Shown here in pieces: positions 43,430 to 58,552 of a stretch of 59,379 nt of DNA (positions within the stretch are counted from its first letter, which is position 1; the number at the start of each line of letters is the position of its first letter). The notes beneath the pieces were generated by a model. The model was not told where the DNA came from, made no database searches, and saw only the letters and a program-made list of their open reading frames with translations. Origin of the DNA: Pectobacterium versatile (GTDB lineage Bacteria > Pseudomonadota > Gammaproteobacteria > Enterobacterales > Enterobacteriaceae). The stretch is taken from NCBI RefSeq assembly GCF_020166435.1, contig NZ_JAINZP010000027.1, positions 1 through 59,379 on the forward strand, given 5' to 3'. The position numbers and the translations under genes are program-made.

Positions 43430-46153
43430 ATGCACAAGGAAGACACCATCGACCGATGCTATTTCCAGTATTGGGGAAAAGCAAAAAGAGCCGCGGATGC
43501 GCTGGAGGGGGATGATTATCATCTGCTGCCTTATCACGGTTTGGATGTGGCGGCCTGCGGTTATTTCTTATTAAAGGGAAACTATTTTCAGGCTAATCAT
43601 GTGCTGCGTGAACTGGTATTTGGCGATGATGATGTCGCCGCATGGTTTGCGTATTTTCTGGCCTGGCACGATATCGGAAAATTCGCCCGTGGTTTTCAGG
43701 GCAAATATGCCAACCCTGATTCCCCGTTAGTCCAGCATTCGGGGCAGTCTGGGAGGGACAGGCATGACGATCTGGGCTTCTGGCTATGGACGATGCGTGA
43801 TGACATTCCCAATTTATTTCCTTTAGGGACGAAAAAGCCCACGTCGGTGGTGAAAAATACGCTGGAGATCTGGCTGAACATTGTTACCGGGCACCACGGC
43901 AAACCGGCGGCGGAATGCAAAGGCAGTCTGGCTTTTCATCGTGATGACTATCTGGCGGTAGAACATTACCTGCATGATCTGGAAACGTGTTTTCCTGACG
44001 CGTCTGGGTTCCCTGCCTGTTTCGCTGATAAAGGCTGGCGAAACAGGCTGAAGCAGCAAAGCTGGGCGCTGGCTGGCTTGACCGTGCTGGCGGATTGGCT
44101 GGGCTCGCGCCAGCAGGATTTCCGCTATTGCAGCACGCCAATGCCGCTTGAAACCTACTGGCGTGAACACGCGCTGCCGACGGCAGAAAAGGTTGTCTCG
44201 CGTTTGCCACGAACCCCATCTCCTGCTCCTTTCCATTCTATCCCACAGCTTTTTCCGTTTATCCAACGGCCAACGCCGCTGCAACAGCAGGCGCTGGAGG
44301 CTGATATTTCCGCTGACGGGCCGCAGCTTTTCATTTTAGAAGACGTGACCGGCGCGGGGAAAACAGAAGCGGCGATGATACTGGCGCATCGGCTGATGGC
44401 GCAGCAAAAAGCGAGCGGGATTTATGTCGGCCTGCCGACGATGGCGACGGCGAATGCTATGTACCTGCGGCTTGCTGAGGCCTACCGCGCATTATATTCA
44501 CCAGAACACAATCCTTCGCTGATGCTGGCACACGGGGCGCGGCAGATGTCGTCAGCCTTTATGCAATCGCTGTGGGAAGGCGACAGTCAGGGGCAGACGC
44601 AGTACGACAAGAAGGAAAACGCCGCCAGCAAGGACTGCAACATCTGGTTTGCGGACTCGCGTAAGAAAGCGCTACTGGCGGATATCGGCGTGGGCACGCT
44701 CGATCAGGCGCTGATGGCAGTGATGCCATTTCGCCACCAGTCGCTACGGGTGTTGGGGCTACAGAACAAGTTGCTGATTCTGGATGAAGTGCACGCGTAT
44801 GACGCCTATATGAGCAAGCTGACCGAGCTGTTGATTGGCTTTCATGCACAGCAGGGCGGCAGCGTGATTATTCTCACAGCGACGTTGCCGCTTACCCTGC
44901 GGGAAAAGCTGACATGGGCGTTCGCGCAGGGGATAGCGTGTGAGGCTGTACAACCTGACCCCTATGCGGCTTATCCGTGGATGACGCAGTTAACGCGTGA
45001 AGGACTACGGGAAACCGCGCTCGAAACGCGGGCGGAAGTGCGACGCGAGGTCAAGATTGGCTGGTTGACGGAACGGTTGCAGGGCATCGAACGTGTCAAG
45101 GCTGCCGTGGCGGCGGGGCAATCGATCTGTTGGATCAGGAATACGGTGGATGACGCCATCGCCGTGTATCGCCAGCTCATTGAGGCGGGTATTGCAGAGG
45201 AAAATATGTTGCTGTTCCATAGTCGTTTCGCCTTTTGCGATCGCATGGCGATTGAGGAACAGGCGCTGACGTGGTTTGGCAAAGACAGTACGCCGGAGCA
45301 GCGTGCTGGCAAGGTGCTGATTGCCACGCAGGTTGTCGAGCAATCGCTGGATATTGATGTTGATAACATGATTAGCGACCTTGCGCCGATCGATTTGCTG
45401 ATTCAGCGTGCAGGGCGACTGCAGCGGCATATCCGGTTTCTCGACGGGCGTCGTAAAACTGAAATGGACATTGCACCGCTAACGGATGAGCGCCCAGCGG
45501 CAGTGCTGCACATTATGGCACCGGTCTGGCAACCAGAAGCAGAAGCAGAAGCCGACTGGCTGGGTGATGAACTGCGCAGTAGCGGCTACGTTTATCCCGA
45601 TCATGCCGCGCTGTGGCGCACGCAGGTGATATTACGTGAATGCGGTGCGATAAAAATGCCAGAAGCGGCGCGACAGCTGATCAACAGCGTGTATGAAGAA
45701 CAGATCGCGGTGCCTCCGGCCTTGGAAGCGATAGCCAACAAGGTTCTGGGAGAACGATATGGCCAGCGTTCAGTGGCGGGTCAGTCATCGTTGGCGTTGG
45801 TACACGGTTACTGTGCTCAATCCAGCGACTCTGGCTGGAGCGATGCGGTGGATATCTCCACCCGCATAGGAGAGGAAACGCTGGATCTGTATCTGGCGTG
45901 GAAACCGGAAAATGATGGCGAACTCCCGCAGCCTTACGCTGCGTCGGAAACCTTCGCCTGGGAACAAAGCCGCGTGCAGGTAAGGTTAAGCTGGTGGCAG
46001 AAACGTAAAACTGGATTACCGATACTGGAAGGTGACGCGCTGGAGCGGTTTCGGCAGCAATTACACCGCCCACAGGCCGAAGTGCTGCTGCTGAATCGGG
46101 GTGAAACCCACGCGTTTTATAGCGGGCGGGTGGGGTTGATGCTCAGTCAATAA
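43430..46153 (+). CDS. cas3: CRISPR-associated helicase/nuclease Cas3 (type I-E)
   Basis: 907 residues, full length. The N-terminal HD nuclease has His36 (LLPYHGLD) and His80-Asp81 (AWHDIGKFARGFQ). The SF2 helicase has Walker A DVTGAGKTEAAMIL near residue 304, DEVH (LILDEVHAYDAYM) near 451, the SAT-type ILTATLPLTLR, and VVEQSLDIDVDNMISD plus LIQRAGRLQRH in the second RecA domain. It degrades DNA marked by Cascade. Usually it directly precedes cas8e; here 3.1 kb of opposite-strand genes intervene, and its last 11 bases overlap the convergent antitoxin gene. Confidence 0.97.
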   Translation: MHKEDTIDRCYFQYWGKAKRAADALEGDDYHLLPYHGLDVAACGYFLLKGNYFQANHVLRELVFGDDDVAAWFAYFLAWHDIGKFARGFQGKYANPDSPLVQHSGQSGRDRHDDLGFWLWTMRDDIPNLFPLGTKKPTSVVKNTLEIWLNIVTGHHGKPAAECKGSLAFHRDDYLAVEHYLHDLETCFPDASGFPACFADKGWRNRLKQQSWALAGLTVLADWLGSRQQDFRYCSTPMPLETYWREHALPTAEKVVSRLPRTPSPAPFHSIPQLFPFIQRPTPLQQQALEADISADGPQLFILEDVTGAGKTEAAMILAHRLMAQQKASGIYVGLPTMATANAMYLRLAEAYRALYSPEHNPSLMLAHGARQMSSAFMQSLWEGDSQGQTQYDKKENAASKDCNIWFADSRKKALLADIGVGTLDQALMAVMPFRHQSLRVLGLQNKLLILDEVHAYDAYMSKLTELLIGFHAQQGGSVIILTATLPLTLREKLTWAFAQGIACEAVQPDPYAAYPWMTQLTREGLRETALETRAEVRREVKIGWLTERLQGIERVKAAVAAGQSICWIRNTVDDAIAVYRQLIEAGIAEENMLLFHSRFAFCDRMAIEEQALTWFGKDSTPEQRAGKVLIATQVVEQSLDIDVDNMISDLAPIDLLIQRAGRLQRHIRFLDGRRKTEMDIAPLTDERPAAVLHIMAPVWQPEAEAEADWLGDELRSSGYVYPDHAALWRTQVILRECGAIKMPEAARQLINSVYEEQIAVPPALEAIANKVLGERYGQRSVAGQSSLALVHGYCAQSSDSGWSDAVDISTRIGEETLDLYLAWKPENDGELPQPYAASETFAWEQSRVQVRLSWWQKRKTGLPILEGDALERFRQQLHRPQAEVLLLNRGETHAFYSGRVGLMLSQ

Positions 46154-46616
46154 ATGTTTCAACAGGCACATTAAAGTAGCGAGAAAAATCCTTAACTTGC
46201 TGCAATGTCATGATTCGCTTACCGTTAATAATGTCAGAGATGACGCTTTGCGTTGCAATTTGCTTTAAATCTGATTGTTTCAGCCCTCTTTCTTCAATAA
46301 AAAAAGCTAAGGCTTCAGCCTGACTGACGTGGGGCACATCCCGATTTTTCTTTTCATATTCATAGACTCTGTCCGCGATGAGTTCTGCAAAAGTGGCTGG
46401 AATATCATTGATATCAGAAGAATAGAGGTAAAGTTGATTGATACACTCCATTCTTTCCTGAAGATCGTTATCGTCTTCAATAGGTTCCATACAGGCAGAG
46501 AGCAAAGCAGACAGGTTGTTAAGCTGCTCAGAGGATTCCTGAAGCAGAAGAGGTAAATTTTCGATGAGCCCACTGATTCCTACAGAACTGTTAGAACCCA
46601 GAGATGTATTTCGCAT
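46143..46616 (-). CDS. higA: HigA-type antitoxin (HTH), module 1
   Basis: 157 residues. The C-terminal Xre-type helix-turn-helix (about 100-157: FFIEERGLKQSDLKQIATQS, VISDIINGKRIMTLQQVKDF) ends PVETFID, the pattern of HigA antitoxins. The N-terminal half is an acidic helical region (LSACMEPIEDDNDLQERM), probably for toxin contact. It follows the toxin gene by three bases and its stop overlaps the end of cas3 by 11 bases on the opposite strand. It probably also binds the palindrome at 46999. Confidence 0.8.
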   Translation of the reverse strand: MRNTSLGSNSSVGISGLIENLPLLLQESSEQLNNLSALLSACMEPIEDDNDLQERMECINQLYLYSSDINDIPATFAELIADRVYEYEKKNRDVPHVSQAEALAFFIEERGLKQSDLKQIATQSVISDIINGKRIMTLQQVKDFSRYFNVPVETFID

Positions 46617-46619
46617 AAT

Positions 46620-46982
46620 TCACCTTTTTGTCTTCGTTTGAGCTTTCCACCACTCATCGTACTCTGCGTGAGAGCACACGTCTTTCACATACAAAGAACC
46701 CGTATTAGGGTTTAACCATGCTATGATTCTGCAATTGTTACCATTAATATCAAATGCATATATATCAAGTGGTCCTTTGCAGCTTTCGTTTTCTAGCAAT
46801 GCGAAAGGTATGCGATCGATATTCCAGCAAGATGTATTTCGCCATACATGACATAACTGTGCGTAGGACTCAAACCGCAGCGATGGCTTGTCAAAAACAT
46901 CCAGCCATAACTTCAAACCAACTTTCCATTTCGTATGCTTTTTCATCGCATTGGTGATGGACTTGGCTGAGATGACTCTCAT
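46620..46982 (-). CDS. higB: HigB-type toxin (RelE fold), module 1
   Basis: 120 residues. It starts MRVISAKSI and carries the HigB family core: YAFDINGNNCRIIAWLNPNT, then SLYVKDVCSHAEYDEWW. HigB toxins are ribosome-dependent mRNA interferases. It is shorter on charged residues than RelE but keeps the H-x-E-Y-D C-terminal motif. It is the first gene of its pair, as usual for higBA, with a 17-bp palindrome just upstream. Confidence 0.8.
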   Translation of the reverse strand: MRVISAKSITNAMKKHTKWKVGLKLWLDVFDKPSLRFESYAQLCHVWRNTSCWNIDRIPFALLENESCKGPLDIYAFDINGNNCRIIAWLNPNTGSLYVKDVCSHAEYDEWWKAQTKTKR

Positions 46983-47214: not shown

Positions 47215-47973
47215 TTAAACGAGACCGAAGCCTATTTTTATGCGGTAAATGACATCACTAATAGAGCCAGATATACCCAAATTTCTTAAATTAACGTTTT
47301 CGTTGGGTAAAGCAGCTAAAAATATCTCCATGTGGATTCGAATGTCATCGGGTATTTCTATTGTGTTTTCAGTCAGTTGACCAGAAAGTCGAATGACATC
47401 GTTGCGATGTTTATTTATGGTTTTGGTATCGATGGTTTCACCTGCTTTTTTACGATTTGAAAGATCGAGCCAAGCATGCATTTTGAAGGGAATTAGTCGG
47501 TCTGCACCGATGTACGATAAGTGTTCAGTTTGTTGAAGACCATTCTTCAGAAAAGCGTAGTAATTGTCGTCGAGCAGAATAGCCGAAAGGCTAGAAATAT
47601 CCTCTCCCGTTGGTATGGGAATGATAGATGCATCTTTAGGTGGAGTTATACCTTCTGGTGAACGTGAAAAAATCTCTATTTGTACTGGATAAGTGCTGTC
47701 TTCAGGGTTCTTAAAACGATAGAAGATTGATTTTTCGCCACCACTTTGGCGATGTTCATAGCCTCCTGCTTTGATGAACTCCCAGAATTTATTCAAAAAC
47801 TCAGGGGTCAAGGTTTCAATGATCAAAACGATGTCTAAATCTTTAGTCGATCGGAATGGCTCCCCGACCTCATCGAGAGTAATCCAGGAGGCTACTCCGC
47901 CGATCAACACATATTGATCTTGATAATCCTTGAAATATTCACCAAAAAGGCCTAGTCCGCGAATTTCATCCAT
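47215..47973 (-). CDS. AbiEii-like nucleotidyltransferase toxin
   Basis: 252 residues. The nucleotidyltransferase motif is clear near residues 22-50: LIGGVASW, then STKDLDIVLII with the paired metal-binding aspartates, and QIEIFSR supplies a later acidic strand residue. A helical C-terminal half follows. This fits the AbiEii/MenT group, toxins of AbiE-like systems that modify tRNA or other targets and give phage resistance or stasis. Its start overlaps the end of the partner gene by 22 bases, tying the two in translation. AT-richer than the cas genes, consistent with transfer. Confidence 0.75.
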   Translation of the reverse strand: MDEIRGLGLFGEYFKDYQDQYVLIGGVASWITLDEVGEPFRSTKDLDIVLIIETLTPEFLNKFWEFIKAGGYEHRQSGGEKSIFYRFKNPEDSTYPVQIEIFSRSPEGITPPKDASIIPIPTGEDISSLSAILLDDNYYAFLKNGLQQTEHLSYIGADRLIPFKMHAWLDLSNRKKAGETIDTKTINKHRNDVIRLSGQLTENTIEIPDDIRIHMEIFLAALPNENVNLRNLGISGSISDVIYRIKIGFGLV

Positions 47974-48983
47974 GGGTAATTTTCCTTAATTTCATCGAGC
48001 GATAGTTGAATTCTTTCATCAGGATTATCCTTAAAAGCCAGATAAAGGGATACTTCATCAACGACATTAGTTGAAGATTTAGGGCTACGATAGCGCCAGA
48101 TCTCGATAGTGGCTTTTGCGCTGTCAATATCCGTCACCTCTTTAAACTGGCCGCTCTCCAAAAATGTTGTGTAGATTTTCTGCGTCATCGCGAATACAGG
48201 GTGTCGGCCTGATGAAAGTAGGGTGTATTTCGCCAGAGCAGTATCACCGCTATAACATACGTCTTTACCTAATTTTGGGATTTTGTTCACCATAACCGTT
48301 TTCTTAACAGGGCTACGCATCATCGGCAGGGCTTTTTTAAAGGTATCTTTTTGCGAATGGGTAAAAGTATAACGTTTGGTTGTAAATGCCTCTTCAGTAT
48401 CAGGAATGAGTATATCTGCGTTGATTAGTTCTGTAGTGACTTTGGAAAGCGTTACCCTGCTGTACTTATAAGGTGCCATGAGTTCATAAGCGTTGTAGGC
48501 TAAACCAGATTGGTTCCATCCGTCATAAAGTAACCGGATTAGTATGGCTTGGGTTGCGGGAGAAAATTCAGTGCCCCTTTCCTGATTCTGTTTCCTCATT
48601 CTGAATGCTTCGCGCAAATCCATAGCCAATTCAGGAATAAAGAATTGCCGGTCAATGGAGATGAAGTTAATTTTTTGTTCAATAAGGCTTTTTCTTTCTA
48701 CAAAGGAGAGCGTATCAGTAACGTAAACGACAACCCTTTCCGTTTTTTTCTCGATAACAGCGAGGCGTTTTTTTAGGGCAACAATACCTGGGTATTCTCC
48801 ATCGTGCTGGATGATGGCCAACAGAGGTATGAGTGCACCGTTTGGCAGGTAGATGTCTAATTCGAAGAACTGGAAAGCATCCTGGATGCTGAATGGGACA
48901 TTGAGCTTTGTTTTAGCAGCCTTAATTTTAAATCCTAATGCAGATTGAATATAGTTTTTCAACCCGGTTATTTTCATTGTCAT
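47952..48983 (-). CDS. AbiEi-like antitoxin/regulator
   Basis: 343 residues. The N-terminal part resembles a restriction-like alpha/beta domain (PLLAIIQHDGEYPGIVALKK, VVVYVTDTL). A middle winged helix (about 155-220, MAPYKYSRVTLSKVTTELIN) is typical of AbiEi/MarR-like antitoxins, and a C-terminal beta-rich domain follows. GGAG lies seven bases before the ATG. It precedes and overlaps the nucleotidyltransferase gene, and is divergent from cas8e across 297 bases containing inverted repeats it may bind. Longer than classical AbiEi (about 200-300), so it may be a distinct subfamily. Confidence 0.68.
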   Translation of the reverse strand: MTMKITGLKNYIQSALGFKIKAAKTKLNVPFSIQDAFQFFELDIYLPNGALIPLLAIIQHDGEYPGIVALKKRLAVIEKKTERVVVYVTDTLSFVERKSLIEQKINFISIDRQFFIPELAMDLREAFRMRKQNQERGTEFSPATQAILIRLLYDGWNQSGLAYNAYELMAPYKYSRVTLSKVTTELINADILIPDTEEAFTTKRYTFTHSQKDTFKKALPMMRSPVKKTVMVNKIPKLGKDVCYSGDTALAKYTLLSSGRHPVFAMTQKIYTTFLESGQFKEVTDIDSAKATIEIWRYRSPKSSTNVVDEVSLYLAFKDNPDERIQLSLDEIKENYPWMKFAD

Positions 48984-54889: not shown

Positions 54890-55183
<294 letters not shown>

Positions 55184-55267
55184 GTTAGCGATCTTTAACA
55201 ACATGGAAAAATCGGTAGAATTTTTTATGCCGAAAAAAGTGTTATAAAACAACTCTCTACTTTTAGA
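55184..55267 (+). promoter_or_regulatory. CRISPR leader
   Basis: An 84-base AT-rich stretch between cas2 and the first repeat, the position and composition of a type I-E leader that carries the array promoter and spacer-acquisition signals. TTATAAAACA near 55241 could be a -10 region. I do not see a convincing IHF consensus. Confidence 0.75.
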
Positions 55268-55418
55268 GTGTTCCCCGCGCCAGCGGGGATAAACCGAACA
55301 CCATATAAGCGGATAGTCTTCAGTGGCTGTGTTCCCCGCGCCAGCGGGGATAAACCGTTTCTTGGTCAGAAAGTGGATAGCGGAGAAATGTGTTCCCCGC
55401 GCCAGCGGGGATAAACCG
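55268..55418 (+). CRISPR. Leader-proximal CRISPR array: 3 repeats, 2 spacers (type I-E)
   Basis: Three identical 29-nt repeats at 55268-55296, 55329-55357 and 55390-55418, starting GTGTTCCCCGCGCC and ending GGATAAACCG, with the CCCCGC/GCGGGG hairpin. The two spacers (55297-55328 and 55358-55389) are both exactly 32 nt. The third repeat is followed by unrelated DNA, although 55419-55450 could be the start of a cut third spacer. The array resumes at 57361, so this is the leader-side part of a split array. Confidence 0.97.
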
Positions 55419-55452
55419 AAGAATAGAGATGTAAATTATACCGGTTTCCATC

Positions 55453-55497
55453 TTGTCAACTCGTTCCGTTTACGGCATAGTGTTTCCAATTTGGAAA
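55453..55497 (+). promoter_or_regulatory. Promoter and palindromic operator of higBA module 2
   Basis: TTGTCA (55453-55458), 17 bases, then CATAGT (55476-55481) form a plausible sigma-70 promoter. It is followed by the perfect palindrome TTTCCAA-T-TTGGAAA (55483-55497), 19 bases before the toxin start. The palindrome is placed to block transcription start, as expected for HigA autoregulation. Confidence 0.65.
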
Positions 55498-55516
55498 TAA
55501 CAGGGAAGGCATCAGG

Positions 55517-55828
55517 ATGCATGTTATTTCGCGGGCACCTTTCGACACTGCAACCACTCAGTTTCCGAATCAGGCGGCAGCACTTGCTGATCTATATAGG
55601 GTGATCAAACGCGAAATGTATACAACGCCGGACGATATGAAAAAACGCTTCCCCAGCCTGGATAGGATGAAATATCGGGAAAAGTGGTGGGTTATTGATA
55701 TTGGTGGCGGGCATCTTCGAGTGATGTTTTTTGCTGATTTCGAGCGGGGGAAAATCTTCATCAAGCACATCACATCCCATGCAGAGTACGACAGGCTGAC
55801 AGAGTATTACCGGAGGAATAAAGAATGA
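55517..55828 (+). CDS. higB: HigB-type toxin, module 2 (inside the CRISPR array)
   Basis: 103 residues of the HigB family. The core WWVIDIGGGHLRVMFFADFE, then KIFIKHITSHAEYDRL, shows the typical basic strand and H-x-E-Y-D end. AGGGAAGG lies seven bases before the ATG. It is a different subfamily from the toxin at 46620, with similarity limited to the core. It begins about 100 bases after the third CRISPR repeat, so transcripts from the leader would run into it. Confidence 0.88.
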   Translation: MHVISRAPFDTATTQFPNQAAALADLYRVIKREMYTTPDDMKKRFPSLDRMKYREKWWVIDIGGGHLRVMFFADFERGKIFIKHITSHAEYDRLTEYYRRNKE

Positions 55829-56241
55829 TGTACGCAGACGCCATCAAGGCCGCTAACAACCTGACGAGTATCGTACCGTTCCTCGGGGGTAGCACTTCGC
55901 GTAAGGATTATGAGGATGCGCTGAAACTCACTGAATACCTGATCGAGAGTGAGCCTGATAGTCCGCTAATCGATATGCTGACTGCCAAAATTGACAAATA
56001 CGAAGATGATGCGCCGGAGTTTGCTGCCTTCAACGAACGTGTTAAAGCTCTGCCTGCTGGTATCGCTTTACTGCGTGTCCTCATGGATCAGCATCAGCTA
56101 ACGCAGAGTGATTTTGAAGCTGAGATCGGTAAAAAGTCACTGGTATCCCGCATTCTAAACGGTGAGCGCACTCTAACGCTTGATCACATGAGAGCGCTTG
56201 CTAAACGATTCGATATTCCTGTGAGTGCTTTTGTTGATTGA
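55825..56241 (+). CDS. higA: HigA-type antitoxin, module 2
   Basis: 138 residues. The C-terminal Xre helix-turn-helix (LRVLMDQHQLTQSDFEAEIG, KKSLVSRILNGERTLTLDHM) ends IPVSAFVD, and the N-terminal helical half (YEDALKLTEYLIESEPDSPL) is typical of HigA of the proteobacterial group. It overlaps the toxin stop by four bases (ATGA). It neutralises HigB and probably represses the promoter at 55453. Confidence 0.9.
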   Translation: MMYADAIKAANNLTSIVPFLGGSTSRKDYEDALKLTEYLIESEPDSPLIDMLTAKIDKYEDDAPEFAAFNERVKALPAGIALLRVLMDQHQLTQSDFEAEIGKKSLVSRILNGERTLTLDHMRALAKRFDIPVSAFVD

Positions 56242-56330
56242 CGCGACGGTTCAGAGATTCTTGCTAAGAGCGGCATTATGCATCTCGTAAGGAATAAGCA
56301 GCGGTATGACGCTATGGCTGGCTGTTGTCT

Positions 56331-56361
56331 GAGTATTCCCCGCGCTAGCAGGGAATACTCT
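56331..56361 (+). CRISPR. Degenerate CRISPR repeat turned into a long hairpin
   Basis: From 56333 the bases match the array repeat at 19 of the first 22 positions, then diverge. The outer bases extend the hairpin: GAGTATTCCC at 56331-56340 pairs fully with GGGAATACTC at 56351-56360, with GC/GC inside and a GCTA loop. It lies 90 bases after higA. It could be a decayed array unit now acting as an RNA hairpin; there is no T-tract for a classical terminator. Confidence 0.7.
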
Positions 56362-56451
56362 GTAAGAAGGAATTGAAAGAAATCGTCGATACGTTTTTCA
56401 GTATTGATATAAAGAATCGATGCTGTAATAAAATATAGGAAGTGTATTTGT

Positions 56452-56955
56452 CTACCTGTCTATTATATTATTTCTTAAATTAAATTTCCTTAGGGTTAGT
56501 TCTGCTTCTGACTTTTCCTTTTCTGCTGTCTTTTTATCTTCTTCTGCTATATCACTAACAACTTTTAAAACTGCGTCGAATCGAGCCGCTACTTCAGATG
56601 CGTTTAGTACTCCATTCATAGAAAGGAAGCATAAACTATTTAAAGAATAAACTAGAACATTAGTGGTGGTGTTTCTTTTTGCCAGATCCACTATAGCGGT
56701 TTTTAAGCTGGCATCAGTTGTAATACTACTTCCTAATTTATCAGTCAGCGCGGCAGCTATAGTACCATCAAAGGTCTTTGCCGTATCCGCTGGTGCATCG
56801 GGACAATATTTAGCATTGACACTATTTGGTATTAAGATGCCAACTCTCTGGCTTGAACTGCTTCTGACAAGCGTTGGTGAATCATTGTCAATGGTTTCTG
56901 TAACCATACACCCAGATAACAACATAGCGATAGATATAACAAGAATAACTCTCAT
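56452..56955 (-). CDS. Hypothetical lipoprotein
   Basis: 167 residues, unrecognised. The signal MRVILVISIAMLLSGC ends in a lipobox, so it is lipidated at Cys16. The mature part has Ser/Thr-rich and helical segments, with two later cysteines (KYCPD and SLCFL) and a Lys/Glu coiled tail (DIAEEDKKTAEKEKSEAELT). AGGTG lies six bases before the ATG at 56955; a GTG three codons upstream is the alternative. AT-rich and inside the interrupted array, so probably acquired. Confidence 0.65.
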   Translation of the reverse strand: MRVILVISIAMLLSGCMVTETIDNDSPTLVRSSSSQRVGILIPNSVNAKYCPDAPADTAKTFDGTIAAALTDKLGSSITTDASLKTAIVDLAKRNTTTNVLVYSLNSLCFLSMNGVLNASEVAARFDAVLKVVSDIAEEDKKTAEKEKSEAELTLRKFNLRNNIIDR

Positions 56956-57317
56956 TTTATTCACCTATATTTGCTGATAGTGGAGGGCGGTTATTAAATA
57001 AGGTTGTAAGTTTTTCTTTACTACTTAGTGCCGAGTTTCAATGGCACTTATTAAAGCTATAACACAAGTATGAAAATTTTCATTGTGGTTTTTATATTTA
57101 ATTAGGGTTTTTAATCATTTATATTCTCCTGCTAATTATTTACTTCGTTACTTCACGGTGAAGGATATGTATTGATTGTTTCCAATTTATGCCAATATGC
57201 TTGCAATTATTGTAAGTAGCGATTTTAAAAGTCATTGATTTTTACCGTTATATCTACCTTCGGTTGAGAACGCATATTTTTAACATGGGTTTTTTATCAC
57301 GAAATAAAAGCGTAGTG
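56956..57317. other. AT-rich gap between the lipoprotein and the array remnant
   Basis: About 360 bases of strongly AT-rich DNA holding the lipoprotein promoter. I see no gene, repeat or spacer of 32 nt here. Confidence 0.55.
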
Positions 57318-57360
57318 GTATACCTTAAATAATTCGAGTTACAGGAAGGCGGCAAGAGAG
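57318..57360 (+). repeat. Truncated copy of the dispersed palindromic element
   Basis: GTATACCTTAAATAATTCGA, then GTTACAGG, matches the start of the element at 6191 with two changes. It continues with AAGGCGGCAAGAGAG and breaks off exactly where the orphan CRISPR repeat begins at 57361. Only the first third of the element is present. Confidence 0.75.
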
Positions 57361-57450
57361 GTGTTCCCCGCGTCAGCGGGGATAAACCGTGCTTTGAGTG
57401 GATACCCCATCACTACTGATGGTGTTCCCTGTGCGCGGGCTATGGTCGCT
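57361..57450 (+). CRISPR. Leader-distal array remnant: one repeat, one spacer, decayed terminal repeat
   Basis: The repeat at 57361-57389 differs from the main repeat by one base (GCGTCAGC in place of GCGCCAGC). The spacer 57390-57421 is exactly 32 nt. The following 57422-57450 begins GTGTTCCCTGTGCG and then decays, as terminal repeats usually do. The unit has the same orientation as the main array, so it is the distal end of one formerly continuous array. Confidence 0.9.
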
Positions 57451-57466: not shown

Positions 57467-58552
57467 TTATGCGTTTGTGCTAAGGGACGATGAAAATTGG
57501 TCTTTGTGCGCGATGACGTTGTAGTGTACTTCCTTGAGTGTTGCGTAGGCGGGCGAGTCAGGGTTTGTCTCAATCTGAAATATGTCATTGATATTTTTTC
57601 CAATGAAATCGGCAAAAATCTCAAGGAACGTTGACTCTTCACTATCAGGCGCTATTTTAATGTTGCTTATGGAAGAACTAATCCCCTCGGGTGAATACAG
57701 AGTAAAGTTACCCGAAGCGATGGTTTCCTGGTAAATAGATGAGGCAAAATTCTCATTTTCAAAAAATGCAGCAAGCTTCCGCGGTATGGACATTCCTGTT
57801 TTATCAACAAGCTGATAGGCATGTTTGATAGCGGTGAGTATGCTATCTCTTGGGATAGCCTCTGCGATTTCATCTTTAGAGGCATGCAGCCATTGAGTGT
57901 TGTTGTCCCTGAGCATTAACATAGCTCTGAATTGACAGGCGCCATCACTGGGGAGGGTATATTTCAGATAGTCATCTTTAGCAAGGATGTCATCAAACTT
58001 CACCTGCTCATCAAAGTAATGATTCTCTGATGCTTCAAACCAAGCAGGTTTAATCGTGGCATCATTCAAATTTTGAATTTCTTCTTGTACGGCGACAGGG
58101 ATGGTTTGCGCCATATCTTCATCGTCACTGAGTTTTTTACCTGCGGCAAAAACAATTTTAGGGTTTTCGTTCGCGTTGAAGCCAATATTCTTGCCGTTAA
58201 AATCTATAATGGCGTTTTGGCACCCCTCTCGTACTGTTCGTGCTGCCTCATAGGGCGCATCATCCTTTCTGGATACTATTTTACATAGCGATTGTTGCGT
58301 GTAAGAAGCCGTTTCCCCTTGCCCCATAGCGATATTCAGCAACAGTTCAATACTTTCTCTATGGTTGAGTTTTGCTAAGGCATACAATGCCTCTAAACTT
58401 TCGCGTACGGTACAACCATCTTTTAATCGATGATTTAACGTGCATTGGTCACTTACTGCATTCAATAAGCCGTCGATCGTGTTGCGTCCCTTTTCACTCG
58501 AAATGCTGTAGAGCGATTTATTCAAACCGATATGAGAGATCGCTGAGACCAT
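57467..58552 (-). CDS. OTU-type cysteine protease-like protein, candidate effector
   Basis: 361 residues. Asp203-Gly204-Ala205-Cys206 in LPSDGACQFRAMLML fits the OTU nucleophile motif (D-G-x-C-x-F-R), and His343-Tyr344-Asn345 in KEVHYNVIAHKD fits the C-terminal His motif, giving a complete triad about 140 residues apart. The N-terminal 190 residues are helical and unrecognised (SLEALYALAKLNHRESIELL). No Sec signal; Ser/Asn-rich, AT-rich DNA unlike the cas genes. OTU proteases remove ubiquitin in eukaryotes, and bacterial ones are mostly injected effectors. No hrp box was found upstream, so the export route is open. Confidence 0.65.
   Translation of the reverse strand: MVSAISHIGLNKSLYSISSEKGRNTIDGLLNAVSDQCTLNHRLKDGCTVRESLEALYALAKLNHRESIELLLNIAMGQGETASYTQQSLCKIVSRKDDAPYEAARTVREGCQNAIIDFNGKNIGFNANENPKIVFAAGKKLSDDEDMAQTIPVAVQEEIQNLNDATIKPAWFEASENHYFDEQVKFDDILAKDDYLKYTLPSDGACQFRAMLMLRDNNTQWLHASKDEIAEAIPRDSILTAIKHAYQLVDKTGMSIPRKLAAFFENENFASSIYQETIASGNFTLYSPEGISSSISNIKIAPDSEESTFLEIFADFIGKNINDIFQIETNPDSPAYATLKEVHYNVIAHKDQFSSSLSTNA

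Follow-up and report, generated by a model that had tools for sequence, protein, structure and literature searches.

We consider it probable that the end of the window (the whole stretch of DNA analysed, 59,379 nucleotides from Pectobacterium versatile) is a decayed two-array type I-E CRISPR locus, with an autonomous HigBA toxin–antitoxin (TA) pair lying between array 1 and a stub of array 2 devoid of its leader. HigBA appears to be a hitch-hiking addiction module and not a CRISPR-dependent guard, because several relatives keep the same pair without CRISPR immune genes. The type I-E assignment is based on matches to Cas3, Cas8e, Cas1 and Cas2 together with I-E repeats. The locus reads, in order, cas3 (43430), cas8e, cas1, cas2 (54890–55183), leader, array 1, higB, higA, hairpin, lipoprotein-like ORF, dispersed element, repeat, spacer and decayed repeat, and its features are the following:

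46143..46982, minus strand: second, divergent HigBA pair, between cas3 and cas8e (PF09907, E 1.2e-9; HTH_3, E 5.9e-6)
55184..55267, plus strand: leader of array 1, 84 bp, directly 3' of cas2
55268..55418, plus strand: array 1, three 29-nt repeats and two 32-nt spacers
55419..55516, plus strand: higBA promoter region, TTGTCA-17-CATAGT and the palindrome TTTCCAATTTGGAAA just before higB
55517..55828, plus strand: higB, 103 aa, predicted mRNA-interferase-type toxin (PF09907, E 2.7e-22)
55825..56241, plus strand: higA, 138 aa, predicted antitoxin (HTH_3, E 1.6e-8)
56333..56358, no strand given: repeat-like hairpin after higA, recognised by its local score against the repeat and by relatives
56452..56964, minus strand: lipoprotein-like ORF, 170 aa, with a lipoprotein-like N-terminus judged by eye
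57320..57360, no strand given: truncated dispersed element, abutting the repeat at 57361 in the place of the relatives' cas2 copy and leader 2
57361..57389, plus strand: distal repeat, one base unlike the array 1 repeat, read as an array 2 stub that has lost its leader
57390..57421, plus strand: last spacer, 32 nt
57422..57439, plus strand: decayed terminal repeat, covering only the first part of the repeat

The three repeats of array 1 (55268–55296, 55329–55357 and 55390–55418) are identical and enclose spacers of 32 nt each at 55297–55328 and 55358–55389. In the other 11 cas-positive genomes of the genus, its leader is 86.9–100% conserved, placed after cas2 or after a copied cas2 3' end. The decayed repeat starting at 57422 scores 23 against the first part of the repeat, a value reached by one of 4806 random 43-mers of the window, and the hairpin stretch 56326–56365 scores 32 against the repeat, which none of 4806 random window stretches attains. 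Coordinates, scores and profile matches confirm what the sequence-only reading had described here: perfect repeats with 32-nt spacers, higB and higA, a hairpin, a lipoprotein gene, and a distal repeat followed by a spacer and a decayed repeat. The truncated dispersed element that it had pointed out is borne out as well, since the core has 37 matches with at most two mismatches in the genome itself and full copies measure about 120 bp, of which the window copy retains roughly the first 40. The lipoprotein-like ORF gave no Pfam match. A search of the window against Rfam returned nothing at gathering scores, and no phage record matched any of the three window spacers at E ≤ 1. In relatives, the hairpin carries changes on both sides of its pairs, and such paired changes suggest that it may now be a terminator-like structure; an intact repeat stands at the position of the hairpin in G022. 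It likely began as a repeat in the window and in G010 and G018, while such an origin is uncertain for the other relatives. Two side observations may be added. Contig C68, elsewhere in the same genome (L040, 2199–2533), holds another array, with five variant-type repeats and most of an I-E leader. In the window, a 361-aa ORF (57467–58552) that resembles the ElaD/SseL family weakly, below cut-off, follows the array stub and precedes the conserved flank gene; no similar DNA turned up in the genus loci to which it was compared.

Toxins of the HigB family cleave mRNA at the ribosome, and HigA neutralises the toxin and binds an operator, repressing the operon. The higB product exceeds the PF09907 cut-off of 27 with 79.2 bits, which places a HigB-family toxin domain in the window, and it matches the solved HigB 5ifg_A (E 2.1e-16). 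The start of higA lies 4 nt before the end of higB, making it an overlapping downstream HTH antitoxin gene, and its product matches the solved HigA 5ifg_B (E 5.6e-38). Compared with the E. coli-type HigBA (PDB 5ifg), the sequence match extends over nearly the whole of both proteins and the toxin-then-antitoxin order is the same, the only difference being the placement beside CRISPR repeats in the window. By analogy, the window HigBA would most likely act as an ordinary type II pair, and we infer from this its toxin activity and addiction. The TTTCCAATTTGGAAA palindrome, recognised by eye, is likely a HigA operator; a promoter scan of the upstream region gave four sites against a shuffle mean of 5.7, that is, no excess. 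HigB also matches the PADLOC model PD-Lambda-2_A (E 2e-13), so that a phage-triggered role is possible. For HigB relatives outside Pectobacterium, all 18 loci are without I-E repeats or cas genes in their flanks (up to 10 kb, less in a few loci), and the 16 such flanks that were scored have no repeat-like end, the best score being 20 versus 58 and 32 in the window. The idea of HigBA as a CRISPR-borne module across bacteria was rejected on these 18 loci. The isolated relatives fit a mobile pair whose arrival in the Pectobacterium locus would have been a single event.

The site was compared in 25 Pectobacterium genomes, one per species, 12 of them cas-positive there with the window counted as one. 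In half of these 12 (G010, G012, G015, G018, G019 and G023), a separate leader precedes the array downstream of HigBA; it is a full 84 bp with 86.9–98.8% identity to leader 1, comes directly after a 62–153 bp copy of the cas2 3' end and is followed by 6 to 28 repeats. DNA homologous to the lipoprotein-like ORF is present in G010, G012, G018 and G019. The window aligns with the leader-2 genomes through the lipoprotein gene to about 57323, where the dispersed element begins; from there on it has the truncated element and the repeat at 57361, in place of the relatives' cas2 copy, second leader and second array. At sequence level, the comparison documents both the second leader of the relatives and its loss from the window. 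The sequence-only reading had taken the locus for one split array and had itself named a downstream array with its own leader in relatives as the contrary result, and this is what the six genomes display. A deletion appears to be the simplest reading of the window breakpoint. In the original layout, array 1 would have followed cas2, with HigBA beside repeats, then the lipoprotein-like gene and array 2; the deletion would have removed the cas2 copy and leader 2 along with the remainder of the element and the greater part of array 2, joining the truncated element to the repeat at 57361.

We call cas-less those genomes without a match to the I-E cas2 region (13 of 25), a term that covers type I-E only. 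The site could be located by its left flank in all 25 genomes and by its right flank in 22 (G003, G014 and G022 being the ones without). TA DNA lies beside a fossil repeat at this same site in eight of the 13 cas-less genomes, as seven intact pairs and one truncated: six hold intact higBA, with both genes open in every copy, G003 has a broken higB, G024 carries an intact ParE/HTH pair, and the other five have neither. In these five TA-free sites, about 170–176 bp separate the flanks, and a repeat relic scores above shuffles in four of them (G011 fails). Among the six cas-less copies, dN/dS is low, 0.035–0.174 for higB and 0.040–0.090 for higA (0.120 and 0.090, respectively, in the sister pair G006/G016), and values against the window are similar, with the higB of G019 as an outlier at 0.243 because its N-terminus differs. 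Cas-positive and cas-less copies are interleaved in the higBA tree, in which several nodes have support below 50, and the two kinds of genome are also mixed in the left-flank tree; the left flanks of G004, with cas, and G005, with neither cas nor TA, differ by about 1.2%. The cas-less genomes may descend from one old allele, since they have a common linker left of the relic that does not resemble what precedes cas3 in the cas-positive genomes. As an alternative direction of change, it is possible that cas genes were gained beside a resident HigBA. Judged from these sequences, HigBA is independent of Cascade and not CreTA-like: it would need no silencing by Cascade, because it encodes a protein antitoxin of its own and is retained where cas is missing. 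We think that HigBA would ride in the CRISPR locus, protecting its own stretch of DNA by addiction, and that the repeats around it would allow pieces of the locus to be lost by recombination, such losses yielding the sites of relatives with TA plus fossil repeat and those with a single repeat. We infer both the direction of change and a route through recombination.

Repeats at the TA ends were judged by local score against the repeat and compared with 200 shuffles at cas-less sites, cas-positive sites being likewise compared with shuffles. On the left side of higBA, or of what remains of it, the repeat or relic scores surpass every shuffle in 15 of 15 cases (8/8 cas-positive and 7/7 cas-less), and the cas-less figure becomes 8/8, above all 200 shuffles, when the ParE pair of G024 is included. 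On the right, repeat-like sequence exceeds shuffles in six of eight cas-positive genomes (G019 ties and G023 fails), in two of the six cas-less genomes with an intact pair, and in two of seven when all cas-less TA sites scored are taken. With the ParE/HTH pairs of seven genomes and the Gp49/HTH pair of G020, 8/8 pass on the left side and 7/8 in the right 300 bp. In seven genomes, ParE is followed by a repeat relic, a spacer-like stretch of 32–35 nt and a repeat or relic, and the spacer-like stretch is similar across G010, G018, G019, G023 and G015. At three places between ParE and HigBA (L042, 4567–4658; L043, 3874–3965; L045, 4506–4598), a relic, a conserved spacer-like stretch of 34–35 nt and a repeat make up a minimal array. 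In G020 (L051, 5215–6230), the Gp49/HTH pair is bordered on one side by a repeat with an altered 3' end and on the other by a perfect one, with no second leader detected.

These bordering repeats could mean that the Pectobacterium I-E locus is a TA docking site, in which repeats would serve as homology ends for the entry, swap and loss of unrelated pairs (HigBA, ParE/HTH and Gp49/HTH) at the array, like oversized spacers, and that cassettes outlive immunity, leaving TA-plus-repeat scars that mark a former CRISPR. This is, in our opinion, an unlikely generalisation. An origin of the 0.9-kb insert by Cas1-Cas2 was dropped as implausible, in view of the 33-bp size of acquired pieces.

The abundance of TA genes in these loci might also be explained by function. 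At least one complete type II TA pair is found in the I-E locus of all 12 cas-positive genomes of the genus. On the array side, complete pairs are present in 10 of the 12, and the genes there are HigBA (G000, G002, G012, G015, G019, G023), ParE/HTH (G004, G010, G015, G018, G019) and Gp49/HTH (G020). The ParE of G023 has two stops inside, and G010 and G018 miss higB and have higA intact; at L042 4694–5141 and L043 4002–4448, higB is reduced to its end and higA is whole, an orphan antitoxin beside a repeat. Between cas3 and cas8e, complete pairs occur in eight of 12: divergent HigBA in G000, G009 and G010, PemK/MazE in G013, G019 and G023, and HicAB in G004 and G020, with only the antitoxin whole in G002 and G012 and no pair in G015 and G018. 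Over the 25 genomes, 15 of 16 PF09907 matches above cut-off, and seven of eight close ParE copies (≥86% identity), fall at the I-E locus site. These genus counts are not independent events, as many pairs are shared by descent, and a better measure is given by the unrelated pair types, that is, HigBA twice, ParE, Gp49, PemK/MazE and HicAB. The same cas3–cas8e gap of the window contains two more minus-strand genes (47215–48983; 252 and 343 aa). They are 99% identical in G002 and G009, while cas3 there is 93–94% identical, and therefore a recent transfer seems likely. A candidate identity of these two genes as AbiE found no support, with no Pfam, NCBIfam or PADLOC match where scanned, and they are taken as uncharacterised.

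As a control, 119 genomes of the family were considered, one per genus, of which 22 have I-E Cas2, and 20 of the 21 non-window loci were fetched (G026 was left out). Small non-overlapping ORFs of 60–200 aa from 12 cas3–cas8e gaps and, in 18 loci, from the first 2 kb beyond the array, 42 proteins in all, were compared with Pfam. In this partial screen, restricted to such ORFs and such distances, one control locus of 20 has a TA pair: G138, whose PemK/MazE closely resembles the Pectobacterium one and occupies the same position. In L136, an 84-aa protein matches DUF6364 below cut-off. The contrast of 12/12 with 1/20, over several unrelated families, and the resemblance of HigB to PD-Lambda-2_A would suit a HigBA that works as a functional partner of type I-E, kept next to the immune genes by selection as a protein backup acting through abortive infection or addiction. 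However, TA pairs persist without cas, G010 and G018 lost higB and kept higA, the genomes are non-independent through shared ancestry, and all 18 HigB relatives outside Pectobacterium are without I-E repeats or cas in the fetched flanks. Hence we regard a functional partnership as quite unlikely.

The claim of one split array stands in part. G009 and G013 have a single array without TA there, in G002, G004 and G020 the TA is followed by at least one repeat with no second leader detected, and repeats border TA genes, the window itself having a repeat to the left of HigBA and the repeat-like hairpin to its right, and for these reasons the sequence-only interpretation is, overall, partly supported. 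The alignment with relatives that it had proposed as a check did yield uninterrupted arrays, namely those of G009 and G013, but no spacer in common with the window: none of its three spacers is among the 373 of 11 relatives, at species-level sampling, so that a direct join of the last spacer to the proximal array is seen in none of the strains. An insertion of HigBA that split one array, with the second leader of relatives arising later, would explain the same orientation of the distal repeat, its 32-nt spacer and the terminal decay, and it would also accommodate the relic, spacer-like stretch and repeat after ParE in seven genomes. It has against it the downstream leaders in 6/12 cas-positive genomes, the lack of common spacers, and a window breakpoint located exactly at the expected position of leader 2, and we hold it to be improbable. 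The single arrays of G009 and G013 could also be obtained by recombination between repeats of two arrays.

That HigBA might guard the CRISPR system, being silenced by Cascade with a crRNA-like antitoxin of the CreTA or CrePA type, is extremely improbable: the toxin gene does adjoin solitary and degenerate repeats, as in CreTA, and five relatives have a relic-spacer-repeat unit between ParE and HigBA, but the protein antitoxin is present and intact, six genomes without I-E cas2 DNA keep the intact pair, at odds with a tolerance that depends on Cascade, and no PAM-plus-seed match links the window spacers or repeat flanks to higBA (a weak test, with chance expectation near zero). The relic spacers of seven genomes likewise gave no PAM-plus-seed match to their own loci, in a test of low power with chance expectation near zero, and no CreA-like guide emerged from either of these two weak tests.

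Among the closest known systems, CreTA (PMC9458426) also adjoins degenerate ectopic CRISPR repeats, but both its toxin and its Cascade-dependent guide antitoxin are RNAs, whereas the window has two proteins for which cas is dispensable. CrePA, as summarised in a review (PMC12737573), likewise links a protein toxin to a CRISPR locus; in contrast, the window has a protein antitoxin, and no crRNA-like antitoxin was found by the low-power seed test. The hypothesis of immunity–suicide coupling (PMC3506569) predicts toxins near cas genes, but its abstract speaks of immunity systems without typical antitoxins, and the pairs here are complete. TA genes between Pectobacterium I-E arrays are already known: the accessible part of a 2019 survey (PMC6963963) reports RelE/ParE between CRISPR-1 and CRISPR-2 in type I-E loci, HigB additionally in P. 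parmentieri, and PemK and HicAB adjoining cas3. That part of its account mentions neither repeats bordering the TA genes, nor TA genes at sites without cas, nor the loss of a second leader, and our literature search, as far as the retrieved texts extend, found no description of repeats at TA ends or of TA remaining at cas-less sites. What the sequences analysed here add are the fossil repeats, the persistence of TA independently of cas and the lost second leader.

One chromosomal site in one genus thus offers strains with cas and TA, with TA but no cas, and with neither, which makes a claimed coupling between CRISPR and TA testable. A gene between repeats need not mean a split array, for a lost leader can mimic one. 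The pattern favours a view of the TA pairs as passengers stabilising the DNA that carries them, and we think that caution is advisable against reading every cas-adjacent TA as a guard.
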